Source: Sulfuricurvum sp. (GTDB lineage Bacteria > Campylobacterota > Campylobacteria > Campylobacterales > Sulfurimonadaceae). From it: 36,516 nt of DNA. Below the pieces are notes generated by a model. It did not search any database. It was given only the letters and a program-made list of their open reading frames with translations, and was not told the origin of the DNA. Shown here one piece after another: positions 5,608 through 11,325 of this stretch (its first letter is position 1; each line of letters opens with the position of its first letter). A program made the translations under genes and the position numbers. Location: NCBI GenBank assembly GCA_011391735.1, contig JAABPY010000054.1:1-36516 (forward strand), written 5' to 3'.

Positions 5608-6723
5608 TTATTTATGACCAATCGTCTTCAACATGGTGCTAATGTCATCATGCTCATCAAGATTGAGTGCGAAGCTTGAATCCATCATCTTATCCAAATG
5701 GTTCATCTCGGTGAGGGTGATCCCTAGCGGATCTTTCTTCGCCACTTTAGCTATCCCATCGGCAAGGGTAACATTATCAAGTCTTTTACCCGTATGACGG
5801 AGAAAATAGGTGAGAAAATATCCCCCGGAGTGATCTTTCTCGATGGCAACGATTACCCGCTTGGCTTGCGAATTCTCAAAGGAAAGGGAAGGGATGAGAG
5901 TATAAAAATCCTCTATACTCAAATAGCCAATATAGATTTTGGTATAAATATCATGATATCGTTGGGTTGCAGGTTTACGGAAAAAATCCCAATCAAGAGG
6001 GGCTCCATTGCGCAATGAGCGAACCATCCATGACAATGTCGCATAATATTTAAAGGAGGAGGTTCGAATCTCTTGGGCGTGGGCGATTTTATCGCTCTCC
6101 ACACTAATCATCGCAGCACGCGGTGAGTTGGTACTCATACGTTCTAATAGATGAGCAGCACTGTAAGGCTTGGTAAACCAAACACTTGCATACGCAGGTA
6201 GCTCTGTTGTCCCCGTTGCCCCCTCGTTGAGAACCAAAATGGAGCGAACGTTATAGCGAGGAAACAATACCTCCAACAATGCCCGTTTTTTACGGAGCCG
6301 TTTTTTGAGATTGCTCACCGATTTTACCAACGTCATCTCGATGAAATAGAGCTCCTTATCGGTAAACAACAGTCCGTCAAACTCCCCGATCTCTTTGTGG
6401 CGGGCACGGTAAATAATCTGCCCCTTCCAGCTCACCGATAATGCATCGCTTTGGGCATGAGTGCGCCCTTTGTGGGGACCTTTGATAATAAACTGTTTGA
6501 TTTTTGGTTCATTGGCTGCAAATCGGAGAAGTTTTTCGTAGATGTAGTTTTCATACACCTCCCCCTCAAATGAGCGAAAAGCACTGACATAACTTTCGTC
6601 TTCCATAGTAAGCCCTTTGGCTTGCAAGGATAAGAGGTGGTCAATATTATAATCGTAGTAGAGGAGATTATCCCCGAGATCTTCGTCGCCATGGGGGATT
6701 ACGGTAGCATTAATGGTTAACAA
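5608..6723 (-). CDS. Unassigned 371-residue protein with a nuclease-like core
   Basis: I do not recognise a family with certainty. No signal peptide or membrane segment is visible. The middle contains EIGEFDGLLFTDKELYFIEMT followed by a very basic helix (KSVSNLKKRLRKKR). A conserved Glu/Asp, then a beta strand ending in Glu, resembles the PD-(D/E)xK nuclease arrangement, but the expected ExK reads EMT, so activity is doubtful. Translation is placed at a TTG with AAGG six bases upstream; no ATG occurs near this end. It converges on the GGDEF-EAL gene with only 13 bases between stops. A hairpin and a possible -10 (TAAAAT, 6771-6776) lie just upstream. Confidence 0.6.
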   Translation of the reverse strand: MLTINATVIPHGDEDLGDNLLYYDYNIDHLLSLQAKGLTMEDESYVSAFRSFEGEVYENYIYEKLLRFAANEPKIKQFIIKGPHKGRTHAQSDALSVSWKGQIIYRARHKEIGEFDGLLFTDKELYFIEMTLVKSVSNLKKRLRKKRALLEVLFPRYNVRSILVLNEGATGTTELPAYASVWFTKPYSAAHLLERMSTNSPRAAMISVESDKIAHAQEIRTSSFKYYATLSWMVRSLRNGAPLDWDFFRKPATQRYHDIYTKIYIGYLSIEDFYTLIPSLSFENSQAKRVIVAIEKDHSGGYFLTYFLRHTGKRLDNVTLADGIAKVAKKDPLGITLTEMNHLDKMMDSSFALNLDEHDDISTMLKTIGHK

Positions 6724-9838: not shown

Positions 9839-10444
9839 ATGCAAAAATATACCCCCACCGATGACCAAATCCGCACTCAGTTTGTCACGTCGCTGATGAA
9901 CTATTTCAAAATCGAGGAGGATGTGTTCTTACGCTCTCATATTGACGAGCTTATACGTCCTATTCCTACCAACCGCTACAGTGAGTTTCTCCGTCGCCTT
10001 TCTAGCCGTGATTTTCCCTTCAAAACGGGGATTGAGAAAATTTCGTTGATTGCCCATGAGCTTTTGGAGGAACAACGCTCCCCCCTCGAACTCGAAGCCC
10101 ACAAACGGGGGCAAAAACTGTATGCGTTAATGTACGACTTGCGTCGCACGATCACCGATGAGCGCAACAGCGAACAAAGTGCCTTAGAGCGGTTTGAAAA
10201 TGTCCGTTTTACCTCGATCAAAGAGGCAAATTCCACACAGCCGTTATTGGATTCTTTGGATATAGAGGTGATTCGTACCCTTACAAAACGGTGGATTTAC
10301 GATTATGTTTCGCTGGATCGGGGGATTTTTGAGAGGCGAGTTACTCACGAGTACACGCTATTGTTATTAGAGCAACAACGGCAACAAACACAGCCCTCTA
10401 TCGCTACGTCTACTAAACGTGCCTTGATGAGAAAACCCAAATGA
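9839..10444 (+). CDS. Unassigned 201-residue protein, partner of the replisome-organiser-like protein
   Basis: I do not recognise the family. The protein is soluble, largely helical and charged, with a Gln-rich, basic C-terminal tail (RQQTQPS...KRALMRKPK). No signal peptide, cysteine cluster or nucleotide-binding loop is visible. The segment DVFLRSHIDELIRPIPTNRY and the following helices look like a DNA- or protein-interaction domain, but this is a guess. It overlaps the next gene by ATGA, so the two are translated together and probably work together. The start ATG has no ribosome-binding site and is expected to be leaderless. Divergent from the PAS kinase gene. Confidence 0.65.
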   Translation: MQKYTPTDDQIRTQFVTSLMNYFKIEEDVFLRSHIDELIRPIPTNRYSEFLRRLSSRDFPFKTGIEKISLIAHELLEEQRSPLELEAHKRGQKLYALMYDLRRTITDERNSEQSALERFENVRFTSIKEANSTQPLLDSLDIEVIRTLTKRWIYDYVSLDRGIFERRVTHEYTLLLLEQQRQQTQPSIATSTKRALMRKPK

Positions 10445-11325
10445 TAGTGATCCCCTCTTCTCTCATCGACCGTGATGATTTAACATTGTTGGAGCGTGCG
10501 TTACTCCCCCTTATCGTCCGTCACTCTTTTGTGTGGGGGGCATTGCCCAAAGCACTTAGTGCCTCGTTTCTCGCTGAATTGTTACGCCATAGCTCCCGTG
10601 AAGTCGTCGAAGCTCTTGATAGTCTCGTTGCAAAAAAGATTTTAAAAACAACCCGTGAGAAAACCGCCGATGGGGTGATGATTCTCTACCGTTTAGAGCC
10701 TATCGTAGCGTCGCAAGGCATCCCAGACGTGGCTCTTGTTGCAACGCAATACACCGACAGTAACTACTATCTCAACCTCTCCAATGAGACCTTTGAGGAG
10801 CTTCACGGCTATGCGTTAGAGGTGTGTGATCGAGAGGGGCTACGACGAGAGATTTTTGATGATTTCAATTTTCAGCAACGCTCACAAAATCGCCGTTCGT
10901 TTGATTGGCATGCGGAGTTTGAGAGGTGGATACGTCGTGAAGTGGCATCGAACTCACCCGTTATTGCCAACGCTTCACAGCTTGAAGAGAATAAACCCAC
11001 AACACAGGAGTTTGAGATGGCGCAGTATTTCATCCGTCGTCTCTCTTCCATCGACCCCCAATTCAAAGAGCCGTTTGATGTGATGAGCTGGGCAAAACAG
11101 ATACAAATTCTCATTGAGTCCCAAGGATACACCCTTCTTGATATCAAAGCAGGGATTGATTGGCTCTTTAGTGCCAAAGGGGATTGGTTCCGCCCCAACG
11201 TTCCTGATGCCTACCATCTACGAAAACATTTCAAACGGCTCATCGCCCATACCCGAAGTTTCCGAGAGGGGACAACGAGACTTCCTGATGGAGTTAATAT
11301 TTTTGATATTATTGGGAGAGAGTAG
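10441..11325 (+). CDS. Winged-helix protein resembling phage/plasmid replisome organisers (DnaD/DnaT-like)
   Basis: A 294-residue protein. Residues about 15-90 look like a winged helix-turn-helix (SFLAELLRHSSREVVEALDS, then a basic wing). Residues 150-165 contain FDWHAEFERWIRRE, similar to the D-W-x-x-x-[FW]-x-x-W segment of phage replication proteins and DnaT-like domains. The C-terminus has GIDWLFSAKGDWFRPNV followed by YHLRKHFKRL, which matches the 'FW...N....LRk.f..L' ending of replisome organisers and helicase-loading proteins. From this I infer a role in replication initiation or restart. No phage genes surround it. It is coupled to the 201-residue gene by ATGA and converges on the flagellin gene. 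Confidence 0.65.
   Translation: MIVIPSSLIDRDDLTLLERALLPLIVRHSFVWGALPKALSASFLAELLRHSSREVVEALDSLVAKKILKTTREKTADGVMILYRLEPIVASQGIPDVALVATQYTDSNYYLNLSNETFEELHGYALEVCDREGLRREIFDDFNFQQRSQNRRSFDWHAEFERWIRREVASNSPVIANASQLEENKPTTQEFEMAQYFIRRLSSIDPQFKEPFDVMSWAKQIQILIESQGYTLLDIKAGIDWLFSAKGDWFRPNVPDAYHLRKHFKRLIAHTRSFREGTTRLPDGVNIFDIIGRE

Follow-up and report, generated by a model that had tools for sequence, protein, structure and literature searches.

A replisome-organiser-type gene pair that may have displaced the helicase loader DciA in Sulfuricurvum

The window (the whole stretch of DNA that was analysed, 36,516 nucleotides of a Sulfuricurvum sp. assembly) carries two adjacent genes, A and B (Table 1). 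A sequence-only reading had proposed a two-gene module here, and we recovered both open reading frames at exactly its positions and on its strand. The same ATGA overlap was present in 35 of 35 aligned A-B pairs from relatives. Because the stop and start codons overlap, A and B are implied to be translationally coupled, as far as sequence can tell. Purifying selection on the two genes is strong (ω of about 0.06 to 0.14 for A and B, and about 0.06 to 0.12 for B alone). The neighbours of the pair in the window are signalling and flagellar genes rather than phage genes, as had been noted earlier: a two-component kinase with its regulator, a flagellin, a methyltransferase, and a GGDEF-EAL protein. 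The sensor kinase lies upstream of the pair and the flagellin gene downstream.

Table 1. Features of the A-B locus and their positions in the window
Feature	Coordinates	Strand	Description or basis
Gene A	9839..10444	+	201 aa; all-helical candidate helicase loader (lambda P/G39P-like by fold alone)
Gene B	10441..11325	+	294 aa; replisome-organiser/lambda-O-like protein
ATGA overlap, B start codon over A stop codon	10441..10444	+	Sequence
B residues 1-90, winged-helix domain, presumed DNA-binding	10441..10710	+	Weak Phage_rep_O/HTH_36 matches; AlphaFold
B residues 115-170, helical middle with nearly invariant N-x-R-S-F-D-W-x-A-E-F-x-R-W	10783..10950	+	Alignments, model
B residues 177-273, O/DnaD-like C-terminal domain (IDWLxSxKGxWF...LRKxF)	10969..11259	+	PHROG matches

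A and B occur in 36 of 37 genomes of Sulfuricurvum, which are sulfur-oxidising bacteria, always adjacent and in the same order, and the only genome without them (G024) is 83% complete. A single-sequence search of 60 relatives, including the 37 genomes of the genus and 21 other genera, found the pair in none of the latter (0/21). When profiles of A and B were run against 397 Campylobacterota genomes, the pair was found only in Sulfuricurvum and in G399, a genus of the same family; isolated profile matches in G179 and G136 (E values of 0.001 to 0.005) look like chance. In three further relatives with a B protein about 50% identical, A lies directly upstream of B. The sequence-only reading had spoken of a conserved chromosomal gene. 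Conservation held within Sulfuricurvum but not phylum-wide, the pair being confined to this genus and its close relatives.

Within Sulfuricurvum the pair sits at one chromosomal site, adjoining a conserved 371-aa gene, while the flagellin and the kinase pair vary. The 371-aa gene (positions 5611 to 6723 of the window, minus strand) has no Pfam match and is found at the pair's site in most Sulfuricurvum genomes. Phage or integrase genes were not seen near the pair in the window or at the Sulfuricurvum site, nor was dnaA seen in the neighbourhoods examined. In relatives with a B protein 42 to 52% identical, the pair stands among different genes that do not look like phage genes; the neighbours likewise differ in G399 and in the deep relatives L334 and L336, where inspection of the sequences showed no obvious phage genes. 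No relatives of A or B were found in 50,697 phage records or in pattern scans of 2.9 million viral contigs, and the only plasmid relative was that of B's C-terminal domain on pSULKU04. Iteron-like repeats were absent from within the gene pair, with only two weak repeat families in or beside it. The pair had no match in PADLOC, and we set aside a defence-system reading accordingly. The picture of a conserved chromosomal unit outside prophages was thus borne out (36 of 37 genomes, one site, no phage genes nearby).

Judging from its sequence matches and its model, protein B is a replisome-organiser-type protein that joins a winged helix to an O/DnaD-like C-terminal domain, as had been proposed for it. 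The C-terminal domain (residues 177 to 273) matched PHROG families named DnaD-like helicase loader, O-like initiation, and replisome organiser with E values of 7e-9 to 8e-6. A match to these families (2514, 277, and 4880) was found in all 36 of 36 B members (best E, 1.5e-9), and lambda O matches the same families. The N-terminal domain had a weak match to Pfam Phage_rep_O (E, 2e-4; below the curated cut-off). It forms a winged helix in the AlphaFold model and realigned to winged-helix chains with Z scores of up to 11.5. The model as a whole (mean pLDDT, 74.3; pTM, 0.41) is good in the winged helix and of lower confidence in the C-terminal half. The segment first singled out as D-W-x-x-x-F-x-x-W-I-R-R is nearly invariant in the alignments, in the form DWxAEFERWxRR. 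The initial label of a DnaD/DnaT-type protein needs narrowing: the DnaD-like C-terminal domain stands (Pfam DnaD_N itself reached only E 0.06), but no DnaT family match was present among the Pfam and NCBIfam results, and the layout of B appears closer to lambda O than to DnaT. The C-terminal domain is probably the part that recruits the loader. In Sulfuricurvum sp. 17-40-25 (G032; L038 2744-3505), B lacks about 40 residues of its middle (123 to 162) in one open frame, which reflects either a deletion or an assembly fault.

A homologue of this C-terminal domain is encoded on the plasmid pSULKU04 (NC_014763.1; 3421 bp), where a Rep_3 initiator is followed by an overlapping gene for a 98-aa protein (L041 1521-1817). 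The protein is 44% identical to the C-terminal domain of B and is free-standing. Its annotation reads hypothetical only. Because the free-standing homologue adjoins a Rep_3 initiator, the arrangement suggests that the C-terminal domain of B may be a portable recruiting module.

Protein A had no consistent family match in Pfam or NCBIfam, its profile retrieved nothing from PDB sequences, and no sequence relatives were found beyond Sulfuricurvum and its kin. Its AlphaFold model is all-helical (pLDDT, 85.7; pTM, 0.63), and no AAA family recurred among the Pfam and NCBIfam matches of this 201-aa protein. We rejected A as a AAA+ loader of the DnaC/DnaI type, since family searches found no AAA+ domain with a P-loop and the model is all-helical. 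In a Foldseek search of a viral fold library, the leading named matches were G39P-type proteins and replisome organisers, all below significance (E, 0.03 to 0.05; probability, 0.95 to 0.97), the top one being a G39P-type helicase inhibitor/loader (E, 0.029; probability, 0.97; TM score, 0.28). Realignment of the model against the PDB placed lambda P in its complex with DnaB at rank 2 (148 aligned residues; root mean square deviation, 7.8) with a Z score of 5.4, a value that, by the tool's own warning, helical models often reach. Foldseek gave E 4.4 for the same comparison. Sequence homology between A and lambda P was rejected, also with a deeper alignment (hhalign probability of 0.2 in a profile comparison with 15 diverse P proteins). 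A had been described as a partner of unknown fold; its model resembles phage helicase loaders, if weakly and below significance. Because the fold matches are below significance and no profile matches, a P/G39P-like loader is a lead for A rather than a statement of homology.

The curated Pfam profile of DciA (PF05258) matched 7 of 60 relatives, none of them in Sulfuricurvum. Because PF05258 alone undercounts DciA in Campylobacterota, we built a phylum-specific profile from the seven positive relatives. In a sample of 200 Campylobacterota genomes from 47 genera it matched 197 genomes and 46 genera; the three genomes without a match were those of Sulfuricurvum, which had no others in the sample. 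Among 31 proteins found with this profile, PF05258 matches 18, and any other family matches two at most. The sequence-only reading had stated that Campylobacterota have no clear DnaC/DnaT-type loader; they do carry a loader-type gene, DciA. The Campylobacterota DciA-like family (L094-L136) is divergent, about 150 aa long, and nearly universal, yet most of it escapes PF05258 at the curated cut-off.

With a second, family-tuned profile, nothing in 30 Sulfuricurvum genomes (28 + 2) scored better than E 0.02, and G399, the sister genus that carries the pair, had no match. Of the 18 other genera in the order, 17 had a match and G052 did not. This genome (97% complete, 1.4 Mb) has neither a DciA match nor the A-B pair and is the only such other genus of the order in the sample. 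Gene order told the same story: in Sulfurimonas-type genomes dciA lies between the divergent genes nadB and uvrC, whereas in five Sulfuricurvum genomes (G017, which is S. kujiense DSM 16994, and G030, G021, G028, and G003) and in G399 these two genes are divergent with no gene between them. In the assembly from which the window comes, a contig end truncates uvrC, and a 602-aa signalling-type open reading frame, not dciA, lies between uvrC and nadB. Across the genomes examined for both, the carriers among them being Sulfuricurvum and G399, all carriers of the pair were without a DciA match and nearly all others had one. We claim no significance in terms of independent events, because the pair-bearing genomes form one clade.

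The distributions of dciA and of dnaC/dnaI have been described as mutually exclusive (PMC5109545). A conserved DnaC was not found in Sulfuricurvum: PF01695 yielded DnaA-sized frames and full-length matches that were sporadic or multicopy, as expected of IstB of IS21. On these grounds DnaC was rejected as the actual loader. An ordinary DnaB is kept in Sulfuricurvum. It carries eight near-fixed differences, scattered along the protein, and one column with few sequences, and none is common to G399; the change is nowhere concentrated, and co-change of DnaB is not informative. Several Sulfuricurvum genomes (G017:C2, G017:C3, G011, G026, and others) have extra DnaB-type helicase genes, which in S. 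kujiense lie on contigs other than the chromosome.

Because DciA is near-universal in the phylum but missing in the lineage of the pair, A-B is best seen as a replacement. We put at roughly 0.75 the probability that A-B is a domesticated phage- or plasmid-type pair of organiser and loader that displaced DciA in Sulfuricurvum. After deletion of dciA, A-B would have taken over the loading of the DnaB helicase at the chromosome. B would bind origin DNA, the origin opened by DnaA, or both, through its winged helix, and by the logic of lambda O and P its O/DnaD-like C-terminal domain would recruit A. From its context and its weak fold similarity to phage loaders, A would in turn bind the host DnaB hexamer and deliver it to single-stranded DNA. 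Of the steps in this explanation, the one that makes A the actual loader is the weakest. The co-occurrence is phylogenetically one event, because gain of the pair and loss of dciA fall on one branch, and any branch also sees changes in many other genes, which counts against displacement. So do the missing sequence similarity of A to lambda P, the fold matches of A below significance, the lack of concentrated change in DnaB, and the absence of iteron-like repeats from the gene pair. Loss of a detectable DciA need not by itself require the pair, because G052 has no DciA match and no pair. A role of the pair in the initiation of replication, suggested at the outset, is now well supported. A further-reaching version is tentative, and we rather doubt it: A would represent an unrecognised class of helicase loader that works with an O-like organiser, is essential, and displaced DciA, and pSULKU04 would exploit it through a free-standing recruiting domain beside Rep_3.

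Alternatively, A-B could be a replication-restart pair (PriA/DnaT/PriC-like) that reloads DnaB at stalled forks, with the loss of DciA a coincidence. O/DnaD-like domains occur in restart proteins too, DnaB loading is common to initiation and restart, and dnaA is not seen near the pair. Restart would, however, leave Sulfuricurvum without a recognisable loader at oriC, and B has no DnaT match in Pfam or NCBIfam; we find this alternative improbable. It is very unlikely that the pair is what is left of the replication module of a plasmid or prophage that integrated, decaying or kept for the element's own sake. B is of a phage or plasmid type and a Sulfuricurvum plasmid encodes a homologue of its C-terminal domain, but across the genus the pair is fixed at a single syntenic position, has an ω of about 0.1, shows no phage or integrase genes nearby, and has no relatives in the phage records and viral contigs searched. 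Occurrence only in integrated remnants, which the sequence-only reading had named as grounds for dropping its proposal, is not what we observed. A role in regulating something else, such as the kinase system next to it or the flagellin, in which B would act as a winged-helix transcription factor, fits the winged helix and the genes flanking the pair in the window genome but is hardly credible, as the flagellin is absent from the site elsewhere, the kinase pair is missing in many genomes, and every B member has a replication-type C-terminal domain.

DnaB loading is not uniform in bacteria, and DciA has been replaced several times by phage-derived loaders. If displacement by A-B is true, DciA would have been replaced independently in a further phylum, where the old gene is gone from exactly its conserved place and the new pair has become fixed. 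It would also offer a clear, testable case of a phage-type pair entering the core machinery of chromosome replication, and the loader might belong to a new sequence family.

Among known systems, DciA (PF05258) would share its job with A-B, the loading of DnaB, but its sequence is unrelated, and it is the gene that is missing. DnaD of Firmicutes resembles B in combining a winged helix with a DnaD-like C-terminal domain (PHROG, DnaD-like helicase loader); it differs in that DnaD_N reaches only E 0.06, the partner A is without a AAA+ domain, and the phylum is another one. With SPP1 G38P/G39P the likeness is that the best viral fold matches of A are G39P-type and replisome-organiser entries, at E values of only 0.03 to 0.05. 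There is no sequence match, and A-B encodes no helicase of its own. The lambda O/P pair is closer: B matches O-like PHROG families, the O and P genes overlap by 4 bases as A and B do, and the model of A aligns with P over most of A's length (Z, 5.4). Yet the A-B genes have no iterons, profile comparison shows no homology between A and P, and B falls below the curated Pfam cut-off.

The nearest precedent is dopC/dopE, which Brezellec et al. reportedly proposed in 2017 as a replacement of dciA derived from lambda O/P. DopE has been named as a loader class (PMC13326638). Both cases have two adjacent domesticated genes, one of them O-like, in a lineage without DciA and DnaC, and a proposed helicase matchmaker; A-B, like DopC/DopE, is present in organisms that have neither DciA nor DnaC/DnaI. 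The two pairs are likened here by description, the sequence comparison of A having covered lambda P only, with no similarity. A-B differs in belonging to another phylum, Campylobacterota, and in its gene order, loader-like and then O-like. On the best explanation, A-B would parallel dopC/dopE, which derive from lambda O/P, but would have arisen independently.
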